The translations under genes and the position numbers were made by a program. A DNA stretch of 64,000 nt from a virus, in the IMG/VR virus record IMGVR_UViG_3300030616_000016, positions 167,648-231,647 of that record; one strand, 5' to 3'. Positions 6,408-27,549 of the stretch are shown in pieces. Numbering within the stretch: the stretch's first letter is position 1; each line of letters starts with the position of its first letter. Under the pieces are notes generated by a model. The model saw only the letters and a program-made list of their open reading frames with translations. It ran no database searches and was not told the DNA's origin.

Positions 6408-6422
6408 TCATGAGTATTGAAT

Positions 6423-8276: not shown

Positions 8277-8281
8277 TTAAC

Positions 8282-8401: not shown

Positions 8402-8455
8402 CACAAATATTAATATCCAAATTAAGATGAACAATTATTATTAAGGAGCATCAAG

Positions 8456-9019
8456 ATGGCAGAAAAGCAAGTAGATAAAATTCCAGGTGAAATGCCTCCA
8501 GTCGAAATGCCTGTTCCGGAAGGAACACAGCAGCTTGCAGAAGATGAAGGCACAGGTCTTCCCAAAGGATTTGGCACCCCAGGTGCATCTGGCGCCCCAG
8601 GGGTACATCGGCCAGAACCATCTCTAAACCCAGAAGAAAAACCAGTAGACACACCTGATGTCAGTCGCGGAGATATTCCAGCCGAGATTCTTGGTCTTGA
8701 GCAATTTCTTCCAGCCGGGCTTACTGTAGAAATGGTTTGGCAATATAAACAGCAGTATGGAAATGTTTATATTGTTGAGGTCTGTGATCAGATCTATCTA
8801 TATCGTGCAATGGCCAAGCCTGAATACAAGAGCATCATGCAGATGGAAGGCGCTACAAGAGAAATGCAGGAAGAAAAGATTGCTGAGAAATGCGTTCTCT
8901 TCCCTGCGCTTGGTATTGAAGGCCTTAGAGTTGGACTGGCTGGTTTGGCATCGACTCTCACAGAGTATATTATGAGAGCCAGTGGATTTGGAGCGATGTC
9001 CACACCAACAAAATTATAG
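8456..9019 (+). CDS. tail assembly chaperone-like protein A
   Basis: This 187-aa protein is preceded by AAGGAGCATCAAG. The first 80 residues are rich in Pro, Gly and Glu and probably disordered. The conserved-looking core (about 105-165) contains DQIYLYRAMAKPEYKSIMQM and EKIAEKCVLFP, a pattern found in tail assembly chaperones (a strand, an R-x-[LM]-x-x-x-E-Y-K turn, then a helix ending in C-x-L-x-P). These proteins coat the tape-measure protein before tube polymerisation. The same core recurs in the next gene. Position between tube and giant tape-measure-like genes matches the usual chaperone location. No slippery frameshift site was found at the 3' end. Confidence 0.65.
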   Translation: MAEKQVDKIPGEMPPVEMPVPEGTQQLAEDEGTGLPKGFGTPGASGAPGVHRPEPSLNPEEKPVDTPDVSRGDIPAEILGLEQFLPAGLTVEMVWQYKQQYGNVYIVEVCDQIYLYRAMAKPEYKSIMQMEGATREMQEEKIAEKCVLFPALGIEGLRVGLAGLASTLTEYIMRASGFGAMSTPTKL

Positions 9020-9028
9020 AGGATATAA

Positions 9029-9793
9029 ATGGGAGAATTATGCGAGGCCTATCTAGGTCCAGAATATCTTCCAGGTCCTCTTATATCGGGTGAATATTTA
9101 AAAGGTGAGGTGGCAGAAGATCCAATTTTGTCACCTCATCTTGCACCTTATATCGCCGCTCTATTAAAGAAGTACGACGATATATTTCATGTTAAGTATA
9201 ATGATCAGGATTTTATAATCCGGCCATTGACTTCAAATGAATATAAGATACTGTGTAAGCTTAGGTTATACTTCGATCCTCAATTAGGGTTCGAAAAGAC
9301 AAGGCCTAGGTTTAGTGTTGTAAGCCTAGAAGATATATTTATAGACTGTATTCTTTATCCTGAGAATGTACTTGATATGGATTTAGATGCATATGTTGTT
9401 GATATGCTTATAGAGACTGCAATACAATATTCGGGATGGGATTCACAGGAGGATATATTTGTAACAAAAGCTCAAATGCAAGCTCATGTAACATCAGATC
9501 TATTAGAGGGCATGTTTACATTTATTAGACGAGCACACCCAGGTCTTGGTGATCGCGATCTTGAAAACAAGAATATTATTGATATAATGAAGTTAATAGC
9601 AAGTGCTGAATTGATATTGGATAAGCCATTCGAGATAGTCACCAAAGATGATAAATCAGATGCTTCTAAAATATCAACCGAAGTTATGATCAAAGAAGAC
9701 TTGGCAGGTCTTAATAAGCTTAATATGCAAGGCTTAAATAAGCCGGAGCTAGAATATGCCCGTAACGCCCAGAGAAGAACAGGAAAGAAGTAG
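9029..9793 (+). CDS. tail assembly chaperone-like protein B
   Basis: This 254-aa protein starts 9 bases after the previous gene in the same reading frame, behind GAGGATATAA. Residues 55-115 carry DQDFIIRPLTSNEYKILCKL and EDIFIDCILYP, the same core as chaperone-like protein A. A helical C-terminal half follows with Lys/Asp-rich segments. Two stop codons separate the genes, so a longer product could arise only by readthrough, for which I see no signal. The last 38 bases overlap the giant gene that follows, suggesting coupled translation. The role as tape-measure chaperone is inferred from the core motif and gene order. Confidence 0.62.
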   Translation: MGELCEAYLGPEYLPGPLISGEYLKGEVAEDPILSPHLAPYIAALLKKYDDIFHVKYNDQDFIIRPLTSNEYKILCKLRLYFDPQLGFEKTRPRFSVVSLEDIFIDCILYPENVLDMDLDAYVVDMLIETAIQYSGWDSQEDIFVTKAQMQAHVTSDLLEGMFTFIRRAHPGLGDRDLENKNIIDIMKLIASAELILDKPFEIVTKDDKSDASKISTEVMIKEDLAGLNKLNMQGLNKPELEYARNAQRRTGKK

Positions 9794-12700
9794 TGGATGG
9801 CTTGGTTATGGCGCGGGATCATTAGCTGTTCTAGCTGGCGCATATATGCTTGGGAAGAATCCAAAGACGCTATACGCAATGGGCGAAACTTTGGACACCG
9901 CAGTATCAGCTATATCAGATGTAACCACCTTTGGTAAGCAACACATAGTAGAAAATCTTAGTAGAATCACTGGCAAGTTCGGTTCTTCCATAGAGACAGC
10001 TGCCAGAAGCCCTTCATCTACAAAAGCACTTAATCCAGAAATATTCAATTCCCTGCAAGGCGCTCTAAGCGCCTGGGAATCTGGCGCCGCAACTACACAG
10101 ACACTTAGAGACGCTCTTGCTGCCAAGTTCTCTAACGTAACGACGGTTAGACCGGGTGTACGTAATCTTCAAGTAAAAGAGATAACACAAGCATTCAGTG
10201 ATATCACTCCTGACGACCCTTTCACTTTATTTGGAAGATCTATAGATAAGAAGGGCGCTGGTCTTCTTAAACAGGCTCAAGAGATAGGAATTGTAGACAA
10301 AGACTGGGTTGCTGACAAAGGCATGTTTATTGATGGTCAGAGATTGGTTGACGCCAATATATTCAGGCCTGAGAAGTGGGGAGAATCTCTTGTAAAAACA
10401 TTACGTGGTGCTACTGGCGGATTCCTTACCGACTCATTACTGCCAAGTACCCATCTTCTTCGAGAGATTCCAGATATAGCTGAGATCTCAACAAAAGGGT
10501 TGGGCAAGCATATAAAAGAGGGAACACTAGATAAAGCCTTTAAGATTGGCGATCAACTTGTTGGTATAACAAAAGATAATTTTGTTGTTGACTTGCCTAA
10601 GCTTCGTGTTGGCCCAGTAGGAAATGCTATTTCTAAGGCACACGCTATAAGAAAGGGGCTTGTAAGACATAGAACAGTTGATGAGATGAAGGAGCTTCTC
10701 GCTTCCAGGGGGCAAGATCTTAATCCGCGTCAAGAAAAGCTATATAGAGCATTAGAAAATAGATTCCTTAGCGAGTATGTTGGCATTGGTCCTCAATACG
10801 CAAGTGAAACGGCGCTTCCAAAGATGCTGCATGGCTGGCTGGCAAAGTTCTACCAGACGGACCTTAAGCCAATATCGATGATTCCAGGCAAGTCATTCGA
10901 TGAGGTATGGGAAAATCTAAGCATTGGTCAAAGAGTCAAGGTTATGGCCAAAGGAGATGTTGATAGCGTCGCCTGGGCCAGAACTTCGATTGCTGGCGAT
11001 CAAGACATTCGATCTTTTGAACAGATACAAGAGATAAAAAGAGCTATCCATGGAGAAAGCTGGGAAGCTGCGCTGGATCCGAGTGGTGAAATATCTAAAA
11101 CAACATCGGTGTTTGGAAGAAGATCAGTAACCAATGCAGAGCAGTTTATGGCAGAAATGCTTGATGAAGAATTCAAGCACACTATGTCACACAACTACTA
11201 TGCCTATGATACTGCTGAACTTGCTGGTAACTGGGCACATACTGTCTTCACGACTCCATTTAGAATAGCATCCAACATGTTTGGATTTGGACTCAAGCAT
11301 GACTCGTTAGGAAAGACTGCGCTCAGAGCCACGGTTGGCATTCCTATGGCCGGATATCTCGCATGGCAGGGAGCAAACTATTTAGATTTTCTTACTGAGC
11401 AGACAACGACATTTAGTCCAATCAAAGGTGTTGCCAGAACATATGCAGAAGCTCAGATAGCCAAACAAAGCATGGCTAATCTTATAGGCATATCATATGC
11501 ATCTAAAACAGCAGAAAGTATGATTGGAATAGATATCGATTCTCCTATTTCCGTTGCGCTTAGAAGCATAGGACTGCCTATACTTGGAGCTAAGATTGGA
11601 CAAAAGATAAATCCTGGAATGGGACGACCTGGTATGTATGTCGGTATTGGGCTAGCCGCGCTTACTTTATCAGACGACCTATCTAGAGATGCAGATGAAT
11701 TAAGAGATATATATGAAGGAAGAAAAGAAGTTCCTGTTAGAAAGTCTCGCTGGTGGATGCTTGGATGTTTTGACCCTCACCAAAGCGTAATGCTTGAAGA
11801 TGGAAGCCTTGTCCATGCAGAAGATGTAGACAGTGGAATGGTAGTCATTAACGATATAGGAGAATATACAGAGGTGACTAATGTCTCTGTAAGAATTACC
11901 GATAAAGACGAGGAGCTAATTTCTATTCTGCCTCATGGATTTCCTTATCCAACAAAAATAACAGGCAATCATGAAGTTCTTGTCCACAGACGTCCTTGTA
12001 TCAAGCCATATACATATAAAACTGGATGTCATCCAAGACGAATCACGAATAGTTCGTGTAGATCTTGTCCGAATGCCTCGCCGGATCTTAATCTGTCATA
12101 TGTCAGAGCCGATGAGCTGAGGCCGGACGACTTTCTTATTCTGCCTAGGCTAAAATGCAACACCTCTATTGGGCTTATCGACCTGTCTGATTACCATGAT
12201 CTATTTGTCATCGATAAAGAAAAAATAGCAGCAGGTCAAAGATTGCATGGTGGTGTTCGGCGTGCTCCAAAAAGCAAATATACTAATAGAATTATACATC
12301 CCGATAAAGATCTCGGTATGCTTTTAGGTTGGGTTTTAGCAGAAGGAAGTAAGCATAGCGACAACTCTATTGAATGTGTGTATAATATTAGTGAAAGCGA
12401 TTTTGCCTTGCAAATGGGTAAAATAGCGCATGCCAAGTTTGGAGCTAGTTATAGCCTATCTGAAAGAGATGGTAGTACTGGGAGAATTGTTATAGGTAGT
12501 AAATTTTTACTCGGTTTTTGTACCAGTGTTGGCATACTGCCAAATAAAACTCCGAACATACGCAGAATGCTAGATTATGGTGAGTGTTTTGTTAAAGGGT
12601 TTGTCATAGGTGCTGTATATGGAGATGGAAGCTATACCGACGGCCATTGGAGATTCAAGGCGAAAAGACTACAGACATGTATTTTCTTGAGAGATATGAT

Positions 12701-15194
12701 CCATGCAGTCGGAGGAGCTGCTTCTATATGTCGAAACTCGTCTATGCTTGAAGGCAAGAGGTTTGATGCGTATTCAGTCACAATAATAGAATTAGATTTT
12801 GCTCTTATTAAGCATTATTATAAAGGAATACCAAAAACCAAGCAGTTAAAATCTGCAATTGGCTGTAAAGACTATGTTTTATATACAATCAGAAGCATAG
12901 TCGCCTCCGATCCTCCTGAAATTGTTTATGACTTCCATGTTAGAGACAGGAATAGCATCTGTTTGCCTGGGCATGTTGTTCACAACTCAGATCCCTTTGA
13001 AGGTGGAGACACTGATTATTACAGGCCTCACCTTATAGCCACAATGCTTTCTGATACCTCTGCCATGGAAGCAAAGTATGGTTCCAAGTCCGCATATTGG
13101 TCTCATGGCACAATGTTCCCTACGCCTCATAATGTATTTGGCTTGAGTATACTGGCTGACCCATACTATGTAGAAAGAAAGCATTACTATGATAGGCCGT
13201 ATCCAATAACAGGAAGATCTAATCTTGCAGAATTTCCTATCTGGGGCAACATACTTGATGCTACTCTTGGAGAGGTTATTAAGCCTACCAAGGTAATGCA
13301 TGAAAATGAACTGGCGCATTATATAACTCAAACCCCTGAGTTCTCTGGAGACAAAGGACTGCAGAGTGTAGCTCAGCAGCTGTCTCTAGCACAAATTAGG
13401 CCTGGTAAGGTGCTGCCAAGAGTAGAAGGAACGCAGGATGACATTGGTCATGCAATATATGACATGACTGAATTTGCTGGATTAAAGGGATTTCTATTTA
13501 CGTCTCTCAAGAAGCAAGTCACTGGAAGCCCTGACTTCTCTGACCAAGGCGCAAGATGGGCTAGTGCAGATGATATTTATAATAAATCTGATGCATACTA
13601 TGATCTACAGCTTGGTGGTATGCTAGGTGCAACCGAGTTCTTCAGAAGATTTTTACCACATAGACAAAACCAAATAGACTATGTTAATCCTCTAAGCAAT
13701 GAAGCTCCGGCATGGCTCCCTGGTAAAAGGTCTGTTTTTGGCGATACAGACTTTATAGATTTCCATAGCTCAGATCCATACACTCGTATCAAGGAGGGGT
13801 CTAAGCGTCTTCCAGGTGCTCAGTATGAAGCTATACACGAACTACATTCTGGTAAAAAAGGCGAATATGATGCTTTTGATAGAATGAAGATATTGGCTGA
13901 TGTCAGCCCATATTCTAATGCCTTCAAGTACTATAAGAACATAGTGGATAAGATGGCTCAGGACGGCCAGCTAGACGGCTATTGGATGGATGAATACCTT
14001 GAAATAGACAGGAGAATTAAAGGAGAAGGACTGCCCGACTTTGAAGCAGAGACAGCAAGTAAAGAGCTTGGTATTTCTGGTGCAGCTGCTGGGACTGCTG
14101 GCCTACTAAATAATCACCTTAGAATACCATGGGTAGGTACTAAGTTAATGAGCATGGATCAAGATCCGCTGGTAGACTATCAAGAGAAGATTTCATTCAA
14201 TAATGACTTCAATGATTGGACTAAACCAATAGACACTATGTTGATGCCATACATGCGCGCACAAAGTGCAAGAGGAGCTATCTCTGGAGCTTTTGGTGGT
14301 GCAACACTAGGTGTTCTTAGCTCAGCTGCTGGAGGTTCATACGCCGGTACTGTAGGAGCTATCGGAGCAGGCGTTGGAACAGTGATGGGATTGGCCGGCG
14401 TTAATGCTCCTGAAAATGAAATCAGAAGAAGGTCTATGGAAGAATACTTCGATAGCTTAGAATATCTGAAGTACAATAAACTAGCTGACAAGGCTGGCGA
14501 ACAAGGCAATATTGCTCTTGCAAATAGATTAAGAAGAATGTCTAAGAGAACCATGGTAGGACTCGACTATTCTCAAGACACAACCTCTTTCTATAAAGCA
14601 GCTTACAGCGCTCTCCCAAAACCGGACAGGCAGTATCTGCAGGCTTTTATCCAGGTTGATCCGGGTAAAAGACCTGAAGTCCTTGACAAAGTTCCAGATT
14701 ATATGCAGCCTATTCTTATGCGTCTATGGAAAGATCCAAAGTCCGAAGCTGATGCCGGCAAGCTATCAAGAGTAGACCAAAACAATAGAGCCCATCAGGC
14801 TGCTTTATCGTATGTAAACAGTCACGGCGGCGTCCCAGATGATGATTCTATGGTATGGCATCCAGATATTAGCATTGAAGATGTCAAACTAAAGACCATT
14901 AAAAATCTTGGTGCTGACATACATAACTTTGGGTTTTGGGGAACTGATGAGCGAGATCTTGAAAGAACGCGGCCTTATATCAAACCCCTTCCATTCTCAT
15001 ATAATACAAACACTTACCAATCTAATAGGTTGAATTTTACTAATAATATGTTACAATATGGTTTTAGCAATGTGTATGTTGATTTGATAAGAAATCCTAG
15101 CAGGCAGCCAGAAAATGTATATTCAATTAATATTCAGAGAAATAGACTTGGTGACATTGCAGGGTTTGACAGCAGGTCTGAGGGAAGGTTCTAA
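9756..15194 (+). CDS. giant tail protein (tape-measure region) interrupted by an intein
   Basis: The precursor has 1812 aa; removal of the 407-aa intein at residues 671-1077 leaves 1405 aa. The start at 9756 has CCGGAG upstream and overlaps the chaperone gene. A probable membrane segment lies at about 14-32 and further hydrophobic stretches at about 520-545, 600-640 and near 1510-1550 (Gly/Ala-rich), as in tape-measure and DNA-delivery proteins. The splice site joins RKSRWWMLG to SDPFEGGDTDYYRPH, and DPYTRIKEGSKRLPGAQYEA occurs further on; I recall related motifs in uncharacterised large-phage tail proteins. Placement right after the chaperones supports a tape-measure or internal tail role. 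It ends in EGRF and its stop overlaps the next start (TAATG). Confidence 0.75.
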   Translation: MPVTPREEQERSSGWLGYGAGSLAVLAGAYMLGKNPKTLYAMGETLDTAVSAISDVTTFGKQHIVENLSRITGKFGSSIETAARSPSSTKALNPEIFNSLQGALSAWESGAATTQTLRDALAAKFSNVTTVRPGVRNLQVKEITQAFSDITPDDPFTLFGRSIDKKGAGLLKQAQEIGIVDKDWVADKGMFIDGQRLVDANIFRPEKWGESLVKTLRGATGGFLTDSLLPSTHLLREIPDIAEISTKGLGKHIKEGTLDKAFKIGDQLVGITKDNFVVDLPKLRVGPVGNAISKAHAIRKGLVRHRTVDEMKELLASRGQDLNPRQEKLYRALENRFLSEYVGIGPQYASETALPKMLHGWLAKFYQTDLKPISMIPGKSFDEVWENLSIGQRVKVMAKGDVDSVAWARTSIAGDQDIRSFEQIQEIKRAIHGESWEAALDPSGEISKTTSVFGRRSVTNAEQFMAEMLDEEFKHTMSHNYYAYDTAELAGNWAHTVFTTPFRIASNMFGFGLKHDSLGKTALRATVGIPMAGYLAWQGANYLDFLTEQTTTFSPIKGVARTYAEAQIAKQSMANLIGISYASKTAESMIGIDIDSPISVALRSIGLPILGAKIGQKINPGMGRPGMYVGIGLAALTLSDDLSRDADELRDIYEGRKEVPVRKSRWWMLGCFDPHQSVMLEDGSLVHAEDVDSGMVVINDIGEYTEVTNVSVRITDKDEELISILPHGFPYPTKITGNHEVLVHRRPCIKPYTYKTGCHPRRITNSSCRSCPNASPDLNLSYVRADELRPDDFLILPRLKCNTSIGLIDLSDYHDLFVIDKEKIAAGQRLHGGVRRAPKSKYTNRIIHPDKDLGMLLGWVLAEGSKHSDNSIECVYNISESDFALQMGKIAHAKFGASYSLSERDGSTGRIVIGSKFLLGFCTSVGILPNKTPNIRRMLDYGECFVKGFVIGAVYGDGSYTDGHWRFKAKRLQTCIFLRDMIHAVGGAASICRNSSMLEGKRFDAYSVTIIELDFALIKHYYKGIPKTKQLKSAIGCKDYVLYTIRSIVASDPPEIVYDFHVRDRNSICLPGHVVHNSDPFEGGDTDYYRPHLIATMLSDTSAMEAKYGSKSAYWSHGTMFPTPHNVFGLSILADPYYVERKHYYDRPYPITGRSNLAEFPIWGNILDATLGEVIKPTKVMHENELAHYITQTPEFSGDKGLQSVAQQLSLAQIRPGKVLPRVEGTQDDIGHAIYDMTEFAGLKGFLFTSLKKQVTGSPDFSDQGARWASADDIYNKSDAYYDLQLGGMLGATEFFRRFLPHRQNQIDYVNPLSNEAPAWLPGKRSVFGDTDFIDFHSSDPYTRIKEGSKRLPGAQYEAIHELHSGKKGEYDAFDRMKILADVSPYSNAFKYYKNIVDKMAQDGQLDGYWMDEYLEIDRRIKGEGLPDFEAETASKELGISGAAAGTAGLLNNHLRIPWVGTKLMSMDQDPLVDYQEKISFNNDFNDWTKPIDTMLMPYMRAQSARGAISGAFGGATLGVLSSAAGGSYAGTVGAIGAGVGTVMGLAGVNAPENEIRRRSMEEYFDSLEYLKYNKLADKAGEQGNIALANRLRRMSKRTMVGLDYSQDTTSFYKAAYSALPKPDRQYLQAFIQVDPGKRPEVLDKVPDYMQPILMRLWKDPKSEADAGKLSRVDQNNRAHQAALSYVNSHGGVPDDDSMVWHPDISIEDVKLKTIKNLGADIHNFGFWGTDERDLERTRPYIKPLPFSYNTNTYQSNRLNFTNNMLQYGFSNVYVDLIRNPSRQPENVYSINIQRNRLGDIAGFDSRSEGRF
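11766..12986 (+). mobile_element. intein with LAGLIDADG homing endonuclease, 407 aa
   Basis: The element runs from Cys671 to Asn1077 of the host protein. It has all splicing landmarks: CFDPHQSVMLEDGS at the N-terminus (block A), TGNH at 736-739 (block B), VYDFHVRDRNSI before the end (block F), and GHVVHN followed by Ser1078 as the first C-extein residue (block G). The two endonuclease motifs are LGMLLGWVLAEGS (853-865) and VKGFVIGAVYGDGS (946-959), with the acidic residues E863 and D957 expected to bind metal. Four cysteines at 748, 758, 768 and 771 may form a small zinc site. Both splicing and homing look intact. The insertion keeps the host frame. Confidence 0.95.
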
Positions 15195-18100
15195 TGCCTG
15201 ACAAGCCAGAACAAAGAAGTGGATCAGTAGCGCCTTGGTTGGTTGGCGGAGGGCTATTAGCTTTTGGTGGGTATCAGGGATATAAGCACTTCGGCCAGAA
15301 GCACTTAGGAAATATGGCAAATAATCTAGGCGATGAGATTAAAGCTGTTGTGCCATCAGTAGAACAAACCGAACAAATAATCAAACCAAGTTCTTCCACA
15401 GAATTCTGGCATAAGTTTGACAGAGCAGGAACTCCTGCAGCTGGCATTGGAGCCACAAATTCATTTATGCATGATATAGTTGATGTCGAAGATGCACACT
15501 ATAAAGGATTCGATGAGATTTTAACTCCTAAGAGAGCTGCTGCTTATAACAAAATTGTGACAGCTCAGCTTACCGACTTTCAGTCTGTTATGAATAATAC
15601 ACACGGAACCAATCTTCTTAATATAGAAGCAATCAACGAGTCTATAAATAGTGCAAATACTGGTTTTATTGATGGCATCAGCGAAAGAGCAAAGAGAAAT
15701 ACAGAAACAGCTGGCTTAATAGGAAGGTCTGATGTAGAAGATATATTTTTTGCTCATTATGGAAGAAAGGGTAAAAGAGCTCAAGAGTTCATTGCAAGAG
15801 AGCAGGCTGCTGTATCACAACTGGAAGATATAGCAAGCCGGCTTACAGCATCAACTGGGCATCAAGTTAAAATACAGGCCATTAACCGCAGCGGTGTAGC
15901 TCCAGAAATAGGGCTCAGAGTAGGTGGCGAGTTTATTTCTATGGGCGCCGCCACTGGAACAAGGCTTCAGTTTGGTTCAAATGTATATCAGGGGCCTCAA
16001 GCCATTCTTGGCAGAACAGCTGAAGGCAGGCTAAAGACCATGACCTTTCATGAAGCTTCTGTAAATGTTCTTGAACAAAAAATGGGCGAGCTAAAAGGCA
16101 TCAAGTCTTCAAGTCAGCTTAGATCCAAGATATCCGGTATATTATCCGAGCCTAGAGAGGCCGCAATCTTTTCTAGTCCTGAAGATAAGATGAGAGCTAT
16201 AGCTGGTGTTCCTGGACAACCTATGAGCGCTGCCGATGTCGCTAGAAGTGGTAACATTGTAACTATGCCGAGTATAGTTAAAGAATCAGGCGCACAAGCT
16301 TCAAGAGATGCTGCTGAAACTCTTAGAAGAATAACTGAATGGGCAGGCAAAGAGGATTGGGACGAGACTACTCGCGCAAGAATGTTTCATATAAAACCTG
16401 GACAAAGGATTACTCCAGAGCGCGTGCTAAGGCATTTCGTTACAGCTGTTAAAGGAGATAAGGTAGACAGACTGACTTTCTCTGCTTTTACTTCTTTGAA
16501 AGCTCTTACGGTTGGAGGGATGCTCACTCCGTTTCAAAACATAGCCAAGGAAGGCGGCGAGGAACTACGCACAGGATTGCTTAGAAAATCTCAATCCGCC
16601 AAATATAAATATAATAAGTATTATGGCTATGGAAGGGAAATGAGACGGCAGAATCTTGCTGGGCTTCTTGCAGGTGAGGGTTCTGAGCGTTTGGCTGGAA
16701 GCGTAAGTGGCAAGGTTCATGCTATAGATAAAGTTCAGAAATTAATTGATGGTGAATGGGTAGACGTTCCAGACAAACTAGTTGGCGCGTTAGGTGGTAA
16801 ATTTTCAGGTGGTTCTGGTGTTATGGCTATTAGTGAGGAATTCGGCGATTTATCTCACGAGTCATCTGGAGATTATATGCTCAAAAAGATAAGCGGCTCT
16901 CCTAACAAGAAAATCAAAGATACAATTAATGAACTTGCAAGAAAGGGCAAGCTAGATGTAAGGAATCTAAAAGCAGCGGGTATTACAGTTCGCAAAAAAG
17001 ATGCTCAGGGGCTATTGCGAACTGAAACAGGAAGCCTGGAATTTAGCCAGGCTGCTTTAAAGCAAGCAAGCGAGACAGAAAACTCTCTGGTTATACCCGG
17101 TAAAAGACTTAGAAAAATAAGTGAATCTGGCTATGCTTTTAGGCTTGGGCCTACTAGTGTTTCAGCTACAAGAGGTACTCGATTTATAGGCAAAGGCTCA
17201 GAGGGAGTTCTTGGTGCTTTGTGGTCAACGAATATTAAACCGGAAGTAAGATCTCAAATGGCTTATGCCACAATACAGAGCCTAATGGAAGAATCAGATA
17301 TCAAATATTCTCGCAATTTAGACGAGTTTGCAGCTACTATATCTGGTGAACTAGATAGAGCCGATCCTAATGCCAGATATTTTAAAGGCGTAGAAGGCAA
17401 TCAAAAAAGATGGCAGCAGCTTACAGATCTAATGACTGAAAGAATGCAGAAAGAAGGAGTAGATAAACGTAGCCTGGATAAGTTTAGAGCATCTATGGAA
17501 GGATATGGTCCTGGTAAGACCATAGAATTTGCTGCTGAGGGTCAACACTACAGAGCTAGAGCTACGACACTAACTGGTACTGCGTTTCCTAGAATGTATC
17601 CTCTTGAAGAGGAGACAGCATTGCATGGTACAGTAGGCAGATATAAATCTGAGTATACAAAGAAGCTGGATGATTTTAATAAAGCATTGGCTGGACATGA
17701 GGACCTTCCTGGTGTTCAAAGATTCATGGAAGCTCAAACAAAGAAACATAGTATTCTTGAAGATGTTTTACGCCACGAATCTGTGCCAGATACACTGATA
17801 AGAAACTTCAATGAAGCTGAAACTCAACAGCTAGAGGCCATAAGAGAAATACAAAGAATGGAAGGCGGTCCAATAAAAGGCATAGAGAAGAAGTTTATTG
17901 CACTCAAAACAAGCGAAGAACAGTTTATGTCCAAGCTTACACAGAGAGCGCAAAGTACTCCACGCAGATATAGACCACAAGACTTTATGATGATGGCTAT
18001 AAAAGCTCATGCTGACCCTGAAAACAGAGACACAGGTGTGCTTGAGTATCTGCTTCGCATGCAGGAAGGTAGCCAGGCTCGCCGCAGCTTTCAAAACGTG

Positions 18101-20698
18101 GCTATGGCAGCTGAGCCTTTATTTGGAACAAGTACCAAACAGATTATTGAAGAAGTAGACAAGGGTATTCTATTTGGCAACAAGGCCTTTAGTTTATCAA
18201 ATCCTGATGACGTCGAACAGCTTAAAGTTATTACCAATGTCATGGGTCAGATTAAAGATGCGGCAGATTCTGCAGACGACGAAGTTGTCAATGCCATGTC
18301 CATACAAGACATTCTTAGAAGATCTAAAGGCCAATTTGAAGCTGCTGGATTAGGAGATGTTAATCCAGAAGAGCTTCTAAGTAAAAATCTTGCTATTACA
18401 GGAATGCCAGAAGGCACGTTCATGGATCTGGAAATTGAACAGGCTCTTAAAACAGGTACTGATAAGTTTCTTGTTTCTTCAAAGAATCAAAGAGAAATGA
18501 TACTTCCATCTCTTGGAGCAACAGGAAGGCTGTTTGGCAAAGGTCCTAATGCTGAAATGATATCTTTGAATGAAATGCGCAGGTCTATACTTGGTGCACA
18601 CCATGGGCTGTCTCTTATGTTAGAAGACGGAGAAAACATAGACGCTCTCAGATCCTCATATGCTACATTTCTTAAATCGCTTGCAGAGGAAAGCCATAAA
18701 ACCGGTTTGTTTGGTAGAGCAGGCGAATTGCAGTGGACTAAAAGCGCGTATCCAAACATCAGACAGTTTGATTTCTCAGATATGAGAAGAATGGATTATC
18801 TTCGTCAGGCTAAGGATTGGGCTGGATACCAGGCAGAAGCTGCTACTGTTCATATAAGCAGAGAAATGGCTGAAGAGTTTGGTGCGCTCGACAAGCTTAC
18901 CAAAAAGGGCGCCGATGATCTTTATGCTCATATGCAGTCTTATCCCGGCCTTACTCCTGGAATGCAGAGGACGGTTAAGCTTAGACTAGATGAAAACCTC
19001 AGAGGCAGGCAAATGAAGGTTGGATATGGAATTGCAATAGCCGGAGCCAGAGACTTTGATGCTGACCGTGTTGCTTTGATGTATCTAGGTGATGAGCATG
19101 AAGTTGTTAGAAATCTTTTGAACAACGATCCTAATTTATCCAAAAGCGATGCCAAGGCTATGGCTCGTAAATTTGTTTCTAGCATGAAGCAAGATTTTAG
19201 AGCAGATGCAGAGTCTATAGCATATCTACAACATTCTGAGATGAAGCTTGCACAGCGCGTTGCAGACGCAAACTTTTTATCAGCAACAAACAAGTTACAT
19301 AAAGATGCTAATGTTAATGCTGTTAGAGATATCGTCAATTATATGGGAAGGATTGATGATGTAGAAATTAAGTCTGGTGCTTACGACGATGAGATTCAGC
19401 GAATTCTATCTAAGCACGATATATCTGGTACAGCCGCAGATACGATGATCGACGTATTTAAAAAGAAGCTTGTAGCATCTAAAGAACTTGGTGTAACTAC
19501 AAACAAGCTTATGATGATGCGTAATACTCTTGCCGATAATATGATTAGAGACAAAGGAAGCAGGCAAGCTACTGATTTCGCGATACAATACTTTCATCAA
19601 ATAACACAGTCTCTTATTAGCGCTAGAAAGCATGGAGAAAAAGGTGATGCTTCTAGAGAATTAATCGAACTTCTGCAAGGTAGATCTGTTGATGGTGATT
19701 TCAAGAACCTTACAAGAGCACACAAGGATAAAATAGGCGAGCTGTTAGGAGAATCTCTTGTTGAAGGCGGTCTTGCTGGAGAGGTAAAAGACAGATGGTT
19801 GTGGAGAAGTGTTGATGAAGGCGTGTATGATTCTAACCAAGTTAAGTGGATAATAGATGAGCAAGCACAAAAGCTAAACGTAAAATCATTCAATGAATTA
19901 AAAGAAACCTTTGTTAACTTGGCAGAAGAAAATCTTAGAAGAAGAAATGAATGGGACGAGTCTAATTTCTTGTTTGAAACAACCATGAAGAAGTCTGGGC
20001 TTGGTAGATTTGCAGAGAGAGGTCAATGGTCTGTTAGACAGTTTATTGAACAGGCTCCTAAGCATATGAAGAAGCTTGGTGCCTTTGTTAAGAAGCAAGC
20101 AGATCTTCCTGAGTTTGCTCGTCTTGTTTCTCATATAACTGGAATCAATGCTATTGCAGCTTATGCTGACGACGCATCAAGGGCTACTATAAGAGAGGCT
20201 GAGAAGACAGCTTCAGATGCTTTAAATTATGCAAAGGCTGGCGATGCAGCTGCTGACATAGCAACTTCCAAAGGTAAATCATGGCTTACCAGACTGTTTG
20301 ATAAGTCAGACGAATACTTGGCTGGATCACCAAAAGCTAAGTACGCACTTGCTGGAGCTGCTATAACAGGTGCTGCTGCCTTCACATTTAGAATGTTTAG
20401 CGACCCGACCATGCCAGCTCCAGAAAGACCTGGTCCAGCCGCTCCGCCTGCTATGCCAATGGATCCAAGACAGCGCGGCATAACTCAATATCAAGGCGCT
20501 CCGCCGGCTCCTGTTTCTCCTTCATATGGCCTTGCAGATAGATTCATATCCTCAGGCTTAAGCGCTGCTCCAGAAATAGCTGTTGCAGAAATGACTAATT
20601 CACTGGACGGGCGTGGTTCTTTTGATATAATGGATCAGAGCCTAAGCGATCCACAATTCCAGGAAGAGTACGAATCGGCTCAGAGAGGTAGGTTTTAA
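15194..20698 (+). CDS. giant tail protein with RNA-polymerase-like motifs (candidate)
   Basis: This 1834-aa protein starts inside the preceding stop (TAATG). A probable membrane segment lies at about 13-30 and another at about 1715-1735, followed by a Pro-rich tail and a C-terminal RGRF. The body is charged and mostly helical. Around residues 1275-1300 it reads YGIAIAGARDFDADRVALMY, where DFDAD (1287-1291) resembles the metal-binding DFDGD of two-barrel RNA polymerases. At 1470-1485 ITQSLISARKHGEKGD resembles a trigger-loop region. This raises the possibility of a virion-carried polymerase-like domain, but no search supports it and other core motifs were not located. A second tape-measure-like or injected internal protein is the conservative reading. 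Confidence 0.6.
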   Translation: MPDKPEQRSGSVAPWLVGGGLLAFGGYQGYKHFGQKHLGNMANNLGDEIKAVVPSVEQTEQIIKPSSSTEFWHKFDRAGTPAAGIGATNSFMHDIVDVEDAHYKGFDEILTPKRAAAYNKIVTAQLTDFQSVMNNTHGTNLLNIEAINESINSANTGFIDGISERAKRNTETAGLIGRSDVEDIFFAHYGRKGKRAQEFIAREQAAVSQLEDIASRLTASTGHQVKIQAINRSGVAPEIGLRVGGEFISMGAATGTRLQFGSNVYQGPQAILGRTAEGRLKTMTFHEASVNVLEQKMGELKGIKSSSQLRSKISGILSEPREAAIFSSPEDKMRAIAGVPGQPMSAADVARSGNIVTMPSIVKESGAQASRDAAETLRRITEWAGKEDWDETTRARMFHIKPGQRITPERVLRHFVTAVKGDKVDRLTFSAFTSLKALTVGGMLTPFQNIAKEGGEELRTGLLRKSQSAKYKYNKYYGYGREMRRQNLAGLLAGEGSERLAGSVSGKVHAIDKVQKLIDGEWVDVPDKLVGALGGKFSGGSGVMAISEEFGDLSHESSGDYMLKKISGSPNKKIKDTINELARKGKLDVRNLKAAGITVRKKDAQGLLRTETGSLEFSQAALKQASETENSLVIPGKRLRKISESGYAFRLGPTSVSATRGTRFIGKGSEGVLGALWSTNIKPEVRSQMAYATIQSLMEESDIKYSRNLDEFAATISGELDRADPNARYFKGVEGNQKRWQQLTDLMTERMQKEGVDKRSLDKFRASMEGYGPGKTIEFAAEGQHYRARATTLTGTAFPRMYPLEEETALHGTVGRYKSEYTKKLDDFNKALAGHEDLPGVQRFMEAQTKKHSILEDVLRHESVPDTLIRNFNEAETQQLEAIREIQRMEGGPIKGIEKKFIALKTSEEQFMSKLTQRAQSTPRRYRPQDFMMMAIKAHADPENRDTGVLEYLLRMQEGSQARRSFQNVAMAAEPLFGTSTKQIIEEVDKGILFGNKAFSLSNPDDVEQLKVITNVMGQIKDAADSADDEVVNAMSIQDILRRSKGQFEAAGLGDVNPEELLSKNLAITGMPEGTFMDLEIEQALKTGTDKFLVSSKNQREMILPSLGATGRLFGKGPNAEMISLNEMRRSILGAHHGLSLMLEDGENIDALRSSYATFLKSLAEESHKTGLFGRAGELQWTKSAYPNIRQFDFSDMRRMDYLRQAKDWAGYQAEAATVHISREMAEEFGALDKLTKKGADDLYAHMQSYPGLTPGMQRTVKLRLDENLRGRQMKVGYGIAIAGARDFDADRVALMYLGDEHEVVRNLLNNDPNLSKSDAKAMARKFVSSMKQDFRADAESIAYLQHSEMKLAQRVADANFLSATNKLHKDANVNAVRDIVNYMGRIDDVEIKSGAYDDEIQRILSKHDISGTAADTMIDVFKKKLVASKELGVTTNKLMMMRNTLADNMIRDKGSRQATDFAIQYFHQITQSLISARKHGEKGDASRELIELLQGRSVDGDFKNLTRAHKDKIGELLGESLVEGGLAGEVKDRWLWRSVDEGVYDSNQVKWIIDEQAQKLNVKSFNELKETFVNLAEENLRRRNEWDESNFLFETTMKKSGLGRFAERGQWSVRQFIEQAPKHMKKLGAFVKKQADLPEFARLVSHITGINAIAAYADDASRATIREAEKTASDALNYAKAGDAAADIATSKGKSWLTRLFDKSDEYLAGSPKAKYALAGAAITGAAAFTFRMFSDPTMPAPERPGPAAPPAMPMDPRQRGITQYQGAPPAPVSPSYGLADRFISSGLSAAPEIAVAEMTNSLDGRGSFDIMDQSLSDPQFQEEYESAQRGRF

Positions 20699-23600
20699 TG
20701 AATAAAAATATTAAAATAGGTCCAGTACAATTAAGTGTTGACGCTGATAGCTTTTCTATATCAGATAGAAAGGTTAATACAATGGTGCCTGGTCTTCGAA
20801 GTAATATACCAAAGGTCATCAATACAGGAAAGAGCAGGCTCGAATATTCCTTCAGTGCTATATTCGCAAACGAAGAAGAGATCAACACAAAGCTAAGACC
20901 TATTATTGCCTATTTCAAAGCAGTTCCTTTTATTACTGTAAAATCAGATGTATTGAATAAGCTTCTTGCAACTCGTCTTGTATCAAAAGCTGTTGCGAAT
21001 CAAAGCAGCTCCTATGATAAGCTAGGTTCTAATTTTATACAGAATAAACTTATCAGCGATCTTCGTAATGCAATATACGAACATCTTTTAGATCCTATTG
21101 TTAAGAGCTACATGAATTTGACTGTTATAGATAAAACTATAATAGATCAGTTTATAAAAGAAAAACTTGGTGTGTCATTGGATGATATAAATCGACCAGC
21201 TCTAAGAACTCTTGTGTCAAGATATGTAGAGCTAAATTACTATGTGTCTAAGGCCACAATCCCTATCAAGGGTGGATCTAACGAACAGCAGATACGTGAA
21301 TTAAGAAAGCATATAAGAGAAAAACTCGCTGGCCAGCTAAAAGAAAGAGATGTTATAGACAGAGCAAAAACTGCTGGTATAGTACAGGTTGCTGATGCCT
21401 CTGATGTATATGATGGTGACACTTTTGTTGTTAGTGGAACAACATATCGTTTATTTGGCGTAGATGCATTTGAAACAGTAAGACCAGGAACTCAGCTTGG
21501 TCCAGGTCAAGAAAAGAAACCTGAGAAATCATACGCAGCTTCCGCTAAATCCTTTCTTGTAGACAGACTTGTTGGTCAGAACTTTACTCTATCTGAAGTT
21601 GGAACTAGAACATATAATCGTGTTTTAGGAATATGCGAATCCGTATCTCCAAGCCATGGAGAGAATGCTAATGTTGGTTTAGAGATGGTTAGCCAAGGCA
21701 TAGCGCTTCCATCTGGCGTTGCAAGTATGGGTAGATATGCAACTATAGAAAGCTTGCCATATCTCAAAGCTGCTAAAACTGCTGCAGAATCTGGGTTGGG
21801 GATATGGAGTCAATCTGAAATTCAAGTGCCAGAGCTTTGGAGAAAGTATGCACAAAATATTAACAACTTTGCTAATCCGTCAAGTCCGACTGTTTTAGAT
21901 TCAGACATACAAGAATTGACAATAAAGCCTGCATCTGTTCTTAAACAGCTTATCGATTCTTTAATTGAAGAGCTTGAGGGTCGTACTCCTAATATAGGTA
22001 TTAACTTTGTTGCATCTGCTCAGCCAATCTTAGATGCATATGAGCAGAGCATTGTATCTGAAGACAAGAAAAAAGAGGACGTAGATAGAGTTTCTGAGTT
22101 TATTGGATTCCCAGAAGATCTTATCCCGTCATGCTTTGCTGGTATTTCATATTCAGCAGTGCACGATTTACCACAGGCCATACAGGCACAGTTTCATTTC
22201 TCAGTGTTCAATCATGCTCCTTATGGTCCTACTTTTGGCTTCAAGTCTGACGTAGTTCAGCAAAACGGAGTTTCAGCGGTAGTATCAGATCCAGACATAA
22301 CATATTCACGTTTAGTGCAAGGCTATGTTAGCAAGGAATTTTTGGAGGAGCCAGCATCCAAACAATACCTAACAGCATACACGCCAGCTAAAGACTTTAC
22401 CATACACTATAATGATGTAGACACGATTGTTAAGAAGACATCAAAAGCTAAATTAAGAGAGTCAGATATTAAGACTAGCGAAAGAGTGCAGAAGTCAAAG
22501 GAAATGTTGAACAAGCGCGAATCTGTTGTGTTCATAGGGAAGCGAATTACTATATCTCCTGATTCTGGTGAGATAGAAATATCAATATTGGAGGATGAAG
22601 AAAAGAAACAGTCAACTGTACATAAGCTTAATAATATACAAATTGAATCTGTAAGCTGCAACATAACAAATAACATTGTCCATTTACCTATTGAAGCTGC
22701 CGCTATTCCAACTGCTCAACACATTGGAAGAGGTATAGGTTCTGTGTCGTTAGAGATTTCTTCTACAGATGAGAACTCTATGGCTGTTTTTAGAACTCTT
22801 GAGCATGCTATTCAAAATGCAATGCATATATCCAATCAGTATGGAGCTCCTACTTCTTTCAGAATAACTAATCCAACAATTAATTTGTCTGGAGCCAAAG
22901 ACTTTGTTTTCGATAATATAGTTGTTAGCAATGACAGATCAGCTCCAGGTAAGTATAATATGAGGATTAATCTGGTCGAAAGCTTTAATGCCGAGGAAGA
23001 CACAGAAGAGAAATTGATACCTAAGATTGATTTTGATTTCAAGGATGGCTCTGGTGTCGCAAAGAAAGTAGTAGAGGCATTAAAAGAACACGCTGGTAGT
23101 CCATTTTATGACAAGTTTATGTCTACTTTCTTCCCGATGACAAAGCCTAGTAGGTCTGTTTCTTCTGATATAGAAGAGTATGTAAATACATATCCTCTTA
23201 TGCTTCTATTTGCTCACACCCATAAAGACACGCCAAATCCGGTTCTTTTGGATGCATACGGAGAAAATATAGGATTTATAGAAAGCTTTTCTAATATTGT
23301 AAATAGAGTTAAATATGACAACATAACTCCCAAAGCTGTTAATATGAGAGACAATCTCATTGAAAGATTGTATCAAATTGATCGCGCATGGTTCGTAGAT
23401 ATAGCTAGCTCTCTTCCAATAAACATAAGCACTGCAATAAATGAAAGAAATCCTTTTAGCACAGCGTCTTCAGTACAAGATGATGTAAGAAAGTTTAGCA
23501 ACCAGTCAATAGTATTTGACAAGGATAATTATAATCCAAGCTATTTGATAAAAGGAGGTAAGTGGGTCATTGGCCCATGGGGTAAAGGACCAGGCGCTAC

Positions 23601-26600
23601 TGCAGGATCAACAGATGCCATGTTAAATCGCAGAGACTACTTTTTGCAGTTCTTATCTACAAAAGATTTTACCAAAAAGTATTTGTTAAACTTATCACAA
23701 GGTTGTTTTAGTGCTGCATATTATTTCAGAAATCTTTTTGAAGATGAATTAGATAGCAACGAGCAAGCTAAGAAAGCCTTTTATAATTGCATCTCATTTC
23801 TTCTTAGCGAAGCTCTAGAATCTAGTCCTAATTTTGAAGGCTTCTTTGGTGCTTGGATTACAAGACAGGTAGGCCTTTATTCTGAAGACCTAGATAGAAG
23901 TCTTTTGCCCACAAGACAAGAGCCAACTACATTTAATGATCTTAATCTACCTACATATAGAGATGTATTTGGCAAAACAGACTCAGTAGTAATTGAAGAA
24001 AGAAAGAAGTTGATTTCTGACTTGCGTGCTATTAGCATTTATATTCCAGAGATATCATACAATGTAGATACTATATCTAGTCCGTATCAATTTTATTCCG
24101 ACATTGTTACTCAGTATCATGTTGGCAAGAGTAATATTGGCCTTCATATGATTAGCGGTTCTAATTTATATAGATCCCAAGACAAGGCTCTCGATAATGT
24201 ATATGACACTGCAGTAGAAATTTACTCAAAAGAAACTGAGACGATGAAATCTAGGCTGCCTGTTTCTGATGCAGTACTTCCAAGAAATAAAGAGTTTTGG
24301 TCGCGTTTAGACCCAAATGCAATAGCTCGTTCTCCAGATGATGTCGTTGAGCCTGGGTGGATGTATGATCTTCAGTGGGAAGATGTGTCTGATACGGCAT
24401 CTGTTACAATGAACCATCTTAAAAAGGTGCATTCTAATAATGTTAACAAGATATCGCCAATAACAACTAATGACTTAGAAGACAATGACATACTTAACAA
24501 CTATGAAGATCTAACTGTAGGCGATAATTACATAGAAAAGATAAAAGAAGTATCTAGTAAAAAAAGAATGTTCAAAGGGTCGCAAATAGGCGATATTAAC
24601 TTTGCTGAAGTTCCTTTACAGTCTATATCTTCTGTTGATAAGTCTAAAAAGAAGTATCCGTCAAGCGGGACAAGTACTACGACTAACTTGCCTGGTAGTT
24701 TTTCTACTGACTCTATCGATACTGATAGACATACTAACAGATTAACAAGAGATAGATATAAAGACGACAAGATATCTTCTATTAGAAAAGCTTATCCAGG
24801 ATACGCGATATATTTTCTTGAAGAGGATGCAGAGGACTGGGGTTATCTTGATGATTATTACAGGTACGACTCAGTTATATCTTGGGACGTTGTACAATCC
24901 AAAAAAGATATAGACACTGCAGTAGTTAAATTTACTAACTTTAAGGGCGTGTTAAGCAATCAGTCTCCAAACAAAGATCGCCTAAAAGATGAAGTTGTTA
25001 GTGCAACTGAAACTGTTGATGAAAGTATTTCTGAGCCAGTGGATCCTAACTCTGCTTATGAGGGAGACCTAAGTGGTCTAGAAGGGCTGTTAACAGCCTT
25101 TAAGCTTAGACAAGGAACTAGAATTATTATCAAGTCTGGATTTACAACTAAGATTTCTGAGATGGAGACTATATTTACCGGACAAGTGGTCGAAGTATCC
25201 CCTGGAGATATCATCACTGTTATTTGTCAAGGATATGGATCTCAGCTTATGTCTTCCATGAATAAAGAGTTTATGTGGGATGATCATAACTTCCCAGAAA
25301 TATTATCAACGGTTCTTTATGACACAACTTACTTTGGCAAATGGGAGAGATTTGTTGATAGGCTTCCTGGTCAAAGTAAAATGTATAGCGGAACCGTAGG
25401 ATCAATTATTTCTCACAAGCTTATAGGCGATTATTTTCCTAGCACCGCTGATGATAATATATATAGAATAGCAAAACCTCACGATAATTTCTTTAAGTGG
25501 ATGTGGGATTGGGCGTGGGGAACAAATTGGCAAATTCGAGGACCTATTTGGTCTAATATATTGACAATGACAAGATATGTGCCAAATACGATACTAACAA
25601 TTCGTCCTTACGATGGACGAGCTACGCTGATATGGAATGATTATGATGGCTACTATATTGACACTAACCACATAAGCAGTCTTAGTTCTCAAATCGGCCA
25701 TGCTGCCTCGGATTATTTGCTAAGGTCTGGTCTTAAACAAAACGACAACCAGACCAAATCAGAAATGCTTGGTGAGATTTTATCCAATGATATTTTTACA
25801 TCTAATGGATCATCTAGTCCGTATATGAGAAGCGAACAAAGGCTAAGCGATGCCAGGTCAAATTTATACAACCACGGCATATATGATTTTAATGATAAAA
25901 TAGACTTGATTAATGAGGAGCTGATATTAACCATTTTGTCTGATTGGTTCATGGATAAGTTTCTTAAAAATATAATAATTAGTAGTGAAGAGCTATTTTC
26001 AAATCATGTAGTTAAGCTAAGAATGGATTCTACCGTACCAATCTCTATTGAACCTATTCTGAAGACCATGGAAAGACCTAGTCAAAAATATAGCGAAGCT
26101 GTGCCATTTTCTCCGCTTTCTAAGCCTACTGGAAATAGAAAAGTCGAAAGCAAGTTTTATGTGTCTGATGTTAGCGGAAATATTGCAAGGGGTATTATTC
26201 CCATAGCATACTTACTACCAGAAAACGTAAATATTGCTAAAGACAGAGACAATATAAGAATAGATCAAATTAAAAAAATAGTTAGTGCTGTAGTTAGATA
26301 TGCAGAGAATCATCCTGGCATAGGTATCAATATCAAAGACGGCAAAACTATGGATGCTATTATGCAGTCTTTAGATATGGAGAATATCATACCTGGATAC
26401 TTGGCTATGTATGATAGTCGTAATTTCTTAGCTGCATTTGAAATATATCTTCCAATTAGTCGCGAGGTTGTATCGCAGATATTATCGTATTTACTTCCTG
26501 CGATATATGGATCTGTAGACTATGTCAGCAGGAATCCCGGCACATTTTTATCTGACGTAAACAATAGCGCAGATAAACTAAAAGATCCGTATGTACCTCC

Positions 26601-27549
26601 TAATATGAGACCTATAGTCGAAACACACTCTGCGGTTAGTGGTGTAAATATCATTAAAAACAATATTAGAGCTACAATGTCTGAGTCGGCCAATACTGTT
26701 TCTCTCACTAAAGAGGACTCTAATAGTACTATGGAGCTTTCAGTTTCTCCTGGTTTAACAACCAAGCTTGCCAAGTCAATTGTAGACATAAACTGTGAAG
26801 ATGTTCAGGTGAGAACTCAGGCAATATTTGGTGCCCTACAAGAAGAAATGCAGAAAATGTATAGAGGTCTTCTTATTTTATCTGGCAATCCAAGAATTAA
26901 ACCTTATCATTATATTAGAGTAGACGATTATTATAATAGTATGTTTGGATCTATAGAGGTAGATAAGGTTATTCATTCTTTCAATCATAAGAGCGGATTT
27001 ACATCTTCTATTGTTCCTCATATGATTGTTAGAGCCAGAACAGATCGTGGTTATTATGCTGCTATGATGGCAAATGCCGAGGCTGGTTTTAAGACTATGC
27101 TTGGTTTAGGAGCAGCGTTGGCTCTAGCTATAGGTACGTTTGGCATTGGATGGATTGGAATTATAGCTGGTGTTGGCATAGGTATAGGCACTGGAATAAC
27201 AACTAGTAAGTTTCTAGGTCCTGGAGCAGGTCAGCCAGGATGGTTTCTTGGTATACCATACCCCACGTTTTCTGGCCAGGGCTTATTTGATAAATCTAGG
27301 CTCAATCCTGTCAAAATAGCTCCGCTTATATACAAGGGTGCGCCGTATGTTGTTGGGCTTGAGGGATGGGACAATAAACAATGGACATATTCAGAATATA
27401 AACGAGAGCTTATGCGACTATATGAAGCCGGATGGGACAAATTTCATTCGCAAATCTCAGACGCTAAGAACGCTTTGTGGGATGCTGCTGGTGAAGCATA
27501 TCAGGCAGGCCATCATACCGCAGAACATATTTGGTGGAATAGGAGGTAG
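20698..27549 (+). CDS. giant baseplate hub-like protein with SNase nuclease domain
   Basis: This is a 2283-aa protein starting at TAATG. Residues about 226-372 form a staphylococcal-nuclease-like domain with DGDT at 239-242, R251, D256, E259 and R308 in the positions of the known catalytic and calcium-binding residues, ending in GLGIWS. Further on, LNNIQIESVSCNITNNI near 642 and the region 1473-1515 (RIIIKSGFTTKISEMETIF, then a TGQVVEVSPGDIITVICQG strand pair) resemble the gpD/gp27 hub fold. A long Gly-rich hydrophobic segment lies at about 2134-2168. Position between the tape-measure-like genes and the gp25-like wedge gene fits a hub at the tail tip, which would place a nuclease at the point of entry. 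Confidence 0.72.
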   Translation: MNKNIKIGPVQLSVDADSFSISDRKVNTMVPGLRSNIPKVINTGKSRLEYSFSAIFANEEEINTKLRPIIAYFKAVPFITVKSDVLNKLLATRLVSKAVANQSSSYDKLGSNFIQNKLISDLRNAIYEHLLDPIVKSYMNLTVIDKTIIDQFIKEKLGVSLDDINRPALRTLVSRYVELNYYVSKATIPIKGGSNEQQIRELRKHIREKLAGQLKERDVIDRAKTAGIVQVADASDVYDGDTFVVSGTTYRLFGVDAFETVRPGTQLGPGQEKKPEKSYAASAKSFLVDRLVGQNFTLSEVGTRTYNRVLGICESVSPSHGENANVGLEMVSQGIALPSGVASMGRYATIESLPYLKAAKTAAESGLGIWSQSEIQVPELWRKYAQNINNFANPSSPTVLDSDIQELTIKPASVLKQLIDSLIEELEGRTPNIGINFVASAQPILDAYEQSIVSEDKKKEDVDRVSEFIGFPEDLIPSCFAGISYSAVHDLPQAIQAQFHFSVFNHAPYGPTFGFKSDVVQQNGVSAVVSDPDITYSRLVQGYVSKEFLEEPASKQYLTAYTPAKDFTIHYNDVDTIVKKTSKAKLRESDIKTSERVQKSKEMLNKRESVVFIGKRITISPDSGEIEISILEDEEKKQSTVHKLNNIQIESVSCNITNNIVHLPIEAAAIPTAQHIGRGIGSVSLEISSTDENSMAVFRTLEHAIQNAMHISNQYGAPTSFRITNPTINLSGAKDFVFDNIVVSNDRSAPGKYNMRINLVESFNAEEDTEEKLIPKIDFDFKDGSGVAKKVVEALKEHAGSPFYDKFMSTFFPMTKPSRSVSSDIEEYVNTYPLMLLFAHTHKDTPNPVLLDAYGENIGFIESFSNIVNRVKYDNITPKAVNMRDNLIERLYQIDRAWFVDIASSLPINISTAINERNPFSTASSVQDDVRKFSNQSIVFDKDNYNPSYLIKGGKWVIGPWGKGPGATAGSTDAMLNRRDYFLQFLSTKDFTKKYLLNLSQGCFSAAYYFRNLFEDELDSNEQAKKAFYNCISFLLSEALESSPNFEGFFGAWITRQVGLYSEDLDRSLLPTRQEPTTFNDLNLPTYRDVFGKTDSVVIEERKKLISDLRAISIYIPEISYNVDTISSPYQFYSDIVTQYHVGKSNIGLHMISGSNLYRSQDKALDNVYDTAVEIYSKETETMKSRLPVSDAVLPRNKEFWSRLDPNAIARSPDDVVEPGWMYDLQWEDVSDTASVTMNHLKKVHSNNVNKISPITTNDLEDNDILNNYEDLTVGDNYIEKIKEVSSKKRMFKGSQIGDINFAEVPLQSISSVDKSKKKYPSSGTSTTTNLPGSFSTDSIDTDRHTNRLTRDRYKDDKISSIRKAYPGYAIYFLEEDAEDWGYLDDYYRYDSVISWDVVQSKKDIDTAVVKFTNFKGVLSNQSPNKDRLKDEVVSATETVDESISEPVDPNSAYEGDLSGLEGLLTAFKLRQGTRIIIKSGFTTKISEMETIFTGQVVEVSPGDIITVICQGYGSQLMSSMNKEFMWDDHNFPEILSTVLYDTTYFGKWERFVDRLPGQSKMYSGTVGSIISHKLIGDYFPSTADDNIYRIAKPHDNFFKWMWDWAWGTNWQIRGPIWSNILTMTRYVPNTILTIRPYDGRATLIWNDYDGYYIDTNHISSLSSQIGHAASDYLLRSGLKQNDNQTKSEMLGEILSNDIFTSNGSSSPYMRSEQRLSDARSNLYNHGIYDFNDKIDLINEELILTILSDWFMDKFLKNIIISSEELFSNHVVKLRMDSTVPISIEPILKTMERPSQKYSEAVPFSPLSKPTGNRKVESKFYVSDVSGNIARGIIPIAYLLPENVNIAKDRDNIRIDQIKKIVSAVVRYAENHPGIGINIKDGKTMDAIMQSLDMENIIPGYLAMYDSRNFLAAFEIYLPISREVVSQILSYLLPAIYGSVDYVSRNPGTFLSDVNNSADKLKDPYVPPNMRPIVETHSAVSGVNIIKNNIRATMSESANTVSLTKEDSNSTMELSVSPGLTTKLAKSIVDINCEDVQVRTQAIFGALQEEMQKMYRGLLILSGNPRIKPYHYIRVDDYYNSMFGSIEVDKVIHSFNHKSGFTSSIVPHMIVRARTDRGYYAAMMANAEAGFKTMLGLGAALALAIGTFGIGWIGIIAGVGIGIGTGITTSKFLGPGAGQPGWFLGIPYPTFSGQGLFDKSRLNPVKIAPLIYKGAPYVVGLEGWDNKQWTYSEYKRELMRLYEAGWDKFHSQISDAKNALWDAAGEAYQAGHHTAEHIWWNRR

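Follow-up and report, generated by a model that had tools for sequence, protein, structure and literature searches.

An intein in a large virion protein of a 0305phi8-36-like phage and recurrent inteins in related tail proteins

A large virion protein of the phage described here very probably carries, in the motif RWWxxG/S..EGG (a slash marks an insertion point throughout), a mobile class 1-type intein that includes a LAGLIDADG homing endonuclease. The host phages are 0305phi8-36-like and long-tailed, and the motif is a highly conserved loop. The intein is no isolated oddity: the orf145-type tail protein, a designation explained below, has been repeatedly invaded by inteins. We base this explanation on the anatomy of the element, its fold, empty sites in homologues, recurrence among relatives and a conflict of trees among related alleles, and we infer from them that the copy in the window would splice, cleave and home.

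Anatomy, fold and empty sites of the intein

The window, that is, the whole stretch of DNA analysed, is the last 64 kb of a 231,647-base IMG/VR phage record. The interrupted gene is an ORF at 9756-15194 (+) that encodes 1812 aa with no stop inside the frame. The intein spans nt 11766-12986 (+), corresponding to 407 in-frame codons and to residues 671-1077 of the precursor counted from the ATG. Its first residue is Cys (TGT at 11766), its last two are His-Asn, and the residue that follows (+1) is Ser. The features of the gene were as follows, identities being to the intein-free IMG/VR relative L002:

9756..11765 (+): N-extein of the large virion protein, 670 aa, 45% identical
11766..12986 (+): intein, 407 aa, predicted Hint splicing domain and LAGLIDADG endonuclease (motifs, model, structure matches)
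11766..11768 (+): Cys1, first nucleophile, block A (sequence, family alignment)
11961..11972 (+): TGNH, block B, TxxH (sequence, family alignment)
12321..12350 (+): LLGWVLAEGS, first LAGLIDADG motif, with Glu (sequence)
12600..12632 (+): FVIGAVYGDGS, holding GAVYGDGS, second LAGLIDADG motif, with Asp (sequence)
12921..12986 (+): blocks F and G, IVYDFHV...HVVHN, with Asn in place of the block-F His (sequence)
12921..12941 (+): block F, IVYDFHV
12972..12986 (+): block G, HVVHN
12987..15194 (+): C-extein, 735 aa and stop, +1 residue Ser, 60% identical

The window intein possesses the Cys1 nucleophile, the block B TxxH and the HN followed by Ser of class 1 inteins. Cys1 was invariant in all 15 inteins of the family described below, as were T66 and H69 of block B (TGNH, intein residues 66-69). 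The usual block-F His, 11 residues ahead of the terminal Asn, is Asn in the window intein and Glu in that of the relative L087; His was found at or beside this place in 13 of the 15. The role of this His is to assist Asn cyclisation; as inteins can do without it, it is no strict defining feature of the class. The original prediction that all splicing blocks are intact thus stands for Cys1, TxxH, VYDFHV and HN+Ser, and fails for the block-F His. Its two LAGLIDADG motifs with acidic residues were confirmed: LAEG and YGDG each contain one acidic metal ligand.

Sequence searches with the window intein returned little. The Pfam family PF14890 scored 24.5 bits, under its cut-off of 35.8, and PF14528 was not matched. 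A phmmer search of the PDB yielded no intein; its matches were T-cell receptors, with E-values no better than 0.067. PHROGs returned nothing, NCBIfam gave chance-level matches only, and a viral scan using the window intein alone found no relative. Similarly, single-intein scans with the inteins of L024 and L019 each recovered only the query. Among named phages, one record was retrieved: Enterococcus phage vB_Efa29212_3e (OP559178), whose intein is 24% identical over 95% of the window intein and lies in a different host protein, probably a ribonucleotide reductase.

An AlphaFold2 model of the intein, built on a 15-row alignment, had a pLDDT of 83.0 and a pTM of 0.83. Its best PDB match was the TliVMA intein with its endonuclease (Foldseek E 1.2e-17; Z 28.3, rmsd 3.4 Å, 317 aligned residues), and the match ran the whole length. 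PI-SceI and PI-PfuI came next in the ranking, and the endonuclease fold also matched I-DmoI. The Hint fold was recovered in the match to the splicing domain of the Mtu RecA intein (Z 18.3, rmsd 1.7, 132 aligned). The two-domain architecture is common to TliVMA, PhoVMA, PI-SceI and the window intein at full length (Z 28.3, 24.3 and about 22, respectively), at sequence identities of only 15-18%. The VMA inteins reside in a V-ATPase subunit, unlike the virion protein of the window. Thus, identification as an intein is weak by sequence profiles alone, and the predicted structure settles the question.

Intein-free homologues continue straight across the predicted junction. L002, 53% identical over 1398 columns, reads RKSRGWMLG-TDPYEGG at this site. 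The uninterrupted sites of Moorella phage MTATph1, Bacillus phage KLEB27-3 and Acinetobacter phage ME3 read RRGRYWLFG-SRTPWWG, RKGRFWGIG-SGTPWQGG and KANRWWVMG-GNSWEG, respectively. Around the junction the DNA of the window and L002 is 69% identical (29/42 nt), compared with 56% gene-wide; given this junction identity, the L002 site may not be a cleavable target. Overall, 115 of the 124 distinct relatives, a number that includes the window, lack an intein at this site, designated a; L156 (IMGVR_UViG_641201006_000001, 218,948 b) is one of them. The intein is therefore dispensable for tail function. The original prediction had proposed a complete intein with the boundaries given above and a search for intein-free homologues bearing the motif RWW...SDPFEGG. 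Intein-free homologues exist: they keep RWW..G..EGG, lack the segment and join at the predicted junction, in agreement with the motifs, the model and the structure matches.

The host protein and its neighbours

The ORFs neighbouring the interrupted gene were:

9029..9793 (+): upstream ORF near the tail-chaperonin position of 0305phi8-36-like phages, by position only
15194..20698 (+): 1834-aa ORF in the tape-measure place by synteny (gene order)
20698..27549 (+): 2283-aa ORF in the baseplate-hub position, with endolysin-type and SNase domains

The only PHROG match of the upstream ORF was weak, to a family of unknown function; the PHROG search with the 1834-aa ORF gave no match. In Acinetobacter phage ME3, which has the same gene order as the window, ME3_35 is a member of the host family (E 2e-13) whose annotation names a virion structural protein of Bacillus phage 0305phi8-36 (YP_001429636) as its homologue; the annotation of ME3_37 does likewise for the 0305phi8-36 baseplate hub. 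In 0305phi8-36 itself, the tape measure is orf146, the hub is gp147, and the chaperonin genes are one gene distant from the tape measure (PMC2147016). Based on this order, the intein host is probably the orf145-type virion protein, the number being assigned from gene order; the text of PMC2147016 makes no mention of orf145. Synteny likewise suggests that the ORF at 15194-20698, and not the intein host, is probably the tape measure, as it is the one gene that lies between the host and the hub-position gene. The host had been predicted to be a giant tail protein of the tape-measure region; it is a large virion protein, and one that probably adjoins the tape measure rather than being the tape measure itself.

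We modelled an intein-free, full-length member of the family (L010 4900-8289, 1130 aa) on a 41-row alignment. The model was mostly helical, with a pLDDT of 84.7 and a pTM of 0.82. In the PDB, no structure matched it at E 0.001 or reached a Z of 8; in BFVD it had four clear matches, all viral proteins without known function. The window's insertion site maps to a loop between short predicted strands, residues 354-357 and 374-378. The family is thus an uncharacterised large virion protein that is confidently folded in the model. An SNase-type domain (PF00565) was observed both in the hub-position ORF of the window (20698-27549) and in the tail protein of the relative L094 (2542-8046).

Inteins across the family and within single phages

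We gathered 123 relatives besides the window from extein-based scans, one intein-based scan and named phages, counting relatives as distinct by 60 residues at the end of the site match. The extein scans took the best 80 of 251 and the best 80 of 355 relatives, so the sample is no census. Among the 124 distinct relatives, window included, 15 inteins were found in 11 proteins at six positions. They were located using profile splits and intein profiles, a procedure that may miss other intein types in the remaining relatives. L215, L216 and L217 were found by the intein-based scan only; in the extein-based sample, 7 of 120 relatives carried an intein, window excluded. The positions and their occupants were:

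Site a1, directly behind WWxxG: 407 aa in the window, 340 aa in L087
Site a2, one codon further on, following WWxxG[RK]: L024, L052, L215, L216 and L217 (375-399 aa); mini-inteins in L019 and L046
Site b, GGALGA/SEPVRR: L216
Site c, RLPGxGY/SALHPE: L083 and L215
Site d, DWxGW/SPxVD: L083 and L216
Site e, VQTMG/SDMHEY: L054

The mini-inteins at a2 have no endonuclease (151 aa in L019, 166 aa in L046). L216 contains three inteins in one 2618-aa frame (6001-7125, 7753-9123 and 10675-11835). At the same codon as the window, the L087 intein has degenerate endonuclease motifs, ANG and ESG. The window intein was 18-26% identical to the other inteins of the family and had no close relative among them. 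We rejected the possibility that a1 and a2 are one allele shifted by alignment, as the exteins of the window and L024 align gap-free by eye; the inteins of these two are 22-23% identical. In a 113-extein alignment, local conservation at all six insertion sites falls within the 79th-95th percentile. This set, also used for the large tree, comprised the window and 112 of the 123 relatives; the eleven others were split or incomplete at one end.

Other interruptions of the gene were evaluated separately. Pfam found no intein domain in five long relatives (L094, L114, L018, L190 and L144). Frameshifts apparently split the relatives L025, L038, L079, L201 and L206, and these were left out of the intron count. 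Rfam at gathering thresholds detected no intron at seven loci. The KLEB27-3 homologue (L004 9051-10081, gp031-gp033) is broken by ORF gp032 in the conserved MPxW/LPG motif, and a group I intron is matched there below threshold (19.6 bits, E 0.028); judged from these features, the interruption is probably an intron in the same tail gene. In L034 (7194-8350), and also in L039, L186 and L187, the protein is interrupted at LHPDETGK / YGAFDKF, with a 303-aa ORF within the gap.

In the host tree, the nearest neighbours of most carriers were intein-free, the exception being L215, L046, L216 and L217, all carriers. In the intein tree, alleles a2, c and d each formed their own clade with 100% bootstrap. 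Within a2, the two trees disagreed. As hosts, L216 and L217 pair as sisters (99/98), and their a2 inteins do not; forcing this pair together in the intein tree cost 71 log-likelihood units (AU p 2e-41). The host clade of L215, L216, L217 and L046 was likewise rejected for the inteins (AU p 3e-4), as was the intein pair of L215 and L216 in the extein tree (AU p 0.0045). This conflict points to intein exchange between phages and indicates horizontal movement for the a2 alleles, not for the a1 intein of the window. For a1, a single ancestral allele in the window and L087 gave an AU p of 0.25, with long branches meeting.

The window phage contains inteins in at least five genes besides that of the tail protein. 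The following were observed, the portal-like, radical SAM and polymerase names being read from sequence. An intein in the terminase large subunit (L131, C1 at about 157 kb) has the junctions EHEI/C..N/CAEF, and one in a portal-like protein (L129, C1 at about 163 kb) has NRS/C..HGN/TATV. A Volactin-like actin carries an intein ending ..HN/CGAG (L125, C1 at about 45 kb), and a radical SAM protein carries one inside its CxxxCxxC motif, CEY/C..KN/CAG (L128, C1 at about 9.5 kb). Outside the window, on the minus strand, DNA polymerase III alpha is apparently split inside an intein (L126, L132 and L133; C1 at about 63.6-64.6 kb): the N-half ends ..DMLQVI and a stop, followed by a free 296-aa LAGLIDADG-like ORF and then a C-intein, ..GLISKN/SHSVSYAYL. 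This apparent layout, with its split intein, recalls a "fractured gene".

Intein or LAGLIDADG matches were likewise present in the records of the ten other carriers, in several cases in further frames beyond the tail protein. With inteins in so many genes, these phages are generally intein-rich, and the tail protein is one host among several. Outside the tail family, L220 has intein-like N and C blocks in two ORFs, of 1162 and 938 aa, and an unannotated gene of a 595-kb phage (LR756511; L124 6001-7146) has an intein-like match.

Mobility, alternative readings and significance

Class 1 inteins of this kind splice after translation and home by means of their endonuclease in co-infections. In the window phage, the Hint domain would excise itself from the translated precursor by an acyl shift at Cys1, transfer to Ser+1 and cyclisation of Asn407, joining precursor residues 670 and 1078 to give the tail protein in its normal 1405-aa form. 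In a co-infecting relative, an intein-free copy of the gene would be cut by the endonuclease, and repair would then copy the intein into it. The motif would be favoured because its coding sequence is not free to change and a leftover insert would be lethal. Counting against this explanation are the block-F Asn, the PF14890 score below cut-off, the lack of a close relative of the window intein and the 69% junction identity to the empty L002 site.

The first of these points bears on an unlikely alternative, that the intein is degraded, having lost splicing or endonuclease activity, and that the precursor or its cleaved halves are used. Decay does occur, as the endonuclease motifs of L087 at the same exact position attest. 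However, the window retains every other splicing residue and the two acidic residues of the endonuclease, the 1812 codons are open and the model is confident; moreover, loss of tail function would be the expected outcome if 407 aa stayed inserted in so highly conserved a motif.

Slightly less probable still is a composite reading, in which the tail protein is an intein nest, with several barely related lineages competing for conserved loops at up to three per chain, and splicing has been recruited in some phages. If true, the tail protein would be competent only under the right conditions or with the right partners, coupling splicing to tail assembly.

That conditional splicing times or checks tail assembly as a general function of the intein, as originally suggested, is improbable and found no support. 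In L019 and L046 the site has kept mini-inteins that lack an endonuclease, and late genes of the window phage (terminase, portal-like and tail) all contain inteins, as such a role might predict. However, site a is empty in 115 of 124 distinct relatives, and the alleles differ, are barely related and show the tree conflict typical of homing. Rarity of precise deletion would also account for the persistence of mini-inteins. Scattered and at odds with the host tree, the inteins are distributed like a mobile parasite; together with the decayed L087 endonuclease and the mini-inteins, the sporadic spread fits a cycle of invasion, decay and loss that needs no timing role. Finally, that the segment is a normal domain of the tail protein can be practically dismissed: nothing was found in its favour, homologues lack the segment exactly, from Cys1 to the Asn before Ser+1, and the predicted fold is Hint plus LAGLIDADG.

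The closest parallel for the paired sites is provided by the mycobacteriophage TerL1-a and TerL1-b inteins, which, like a1 and a2, lie one residue apart in a conserved host motif; their host is a packaging ATPase, whereas that of the window is a tail protein (PMC5050341). According to that survey, every intein-bearing phage protein in its set binds nucleic acid; its table includes portal proteins, with no tail protein noticed in the portion available, and "tail" occurs 0 times in the main text. The mycobacteriophage portal-protein inteins (PMC5050341) and an intein in a minor head protein (PMC7468147) are also in virion structural proteins, but of the head, not the tail. The ICP1 tape measure gene is a tail gene with a mobile element too, but the element is an intron endonuclease and is spliced as RNA (PMC10448857). 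A terminase intein occurs in BtI1, a relative of 0305phi8-36 (PMC2147016), and zeta crAss-like phages have up to 3 inteins per genome (PMC7886860). In the accessible parts of the open-access literature searched, we identified no intein in a tail protein. The mechanism and kind of intein are already known; by these searches, the tail-protein host and the multiplicity are new.

The news lies in the recurrent pattern, not in the single element. It has a bearing on annotation, where intein-bearing tail proteins resemble anomalous fusions, and on virion proteomics. The family also offers a test system: sites separated by a single codon, an allele that exists in full and mini forms, a three-intein chain and intein-free relatives. 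Inteins are usually tied to enzymes acting on nucleic acid and ATP; the host here is structural, a tail protein in which no catalytic fold is recognised. For a gene to become an intein host, it may suffice that its coding sequence is conserved and that leftovers are not tolerated.
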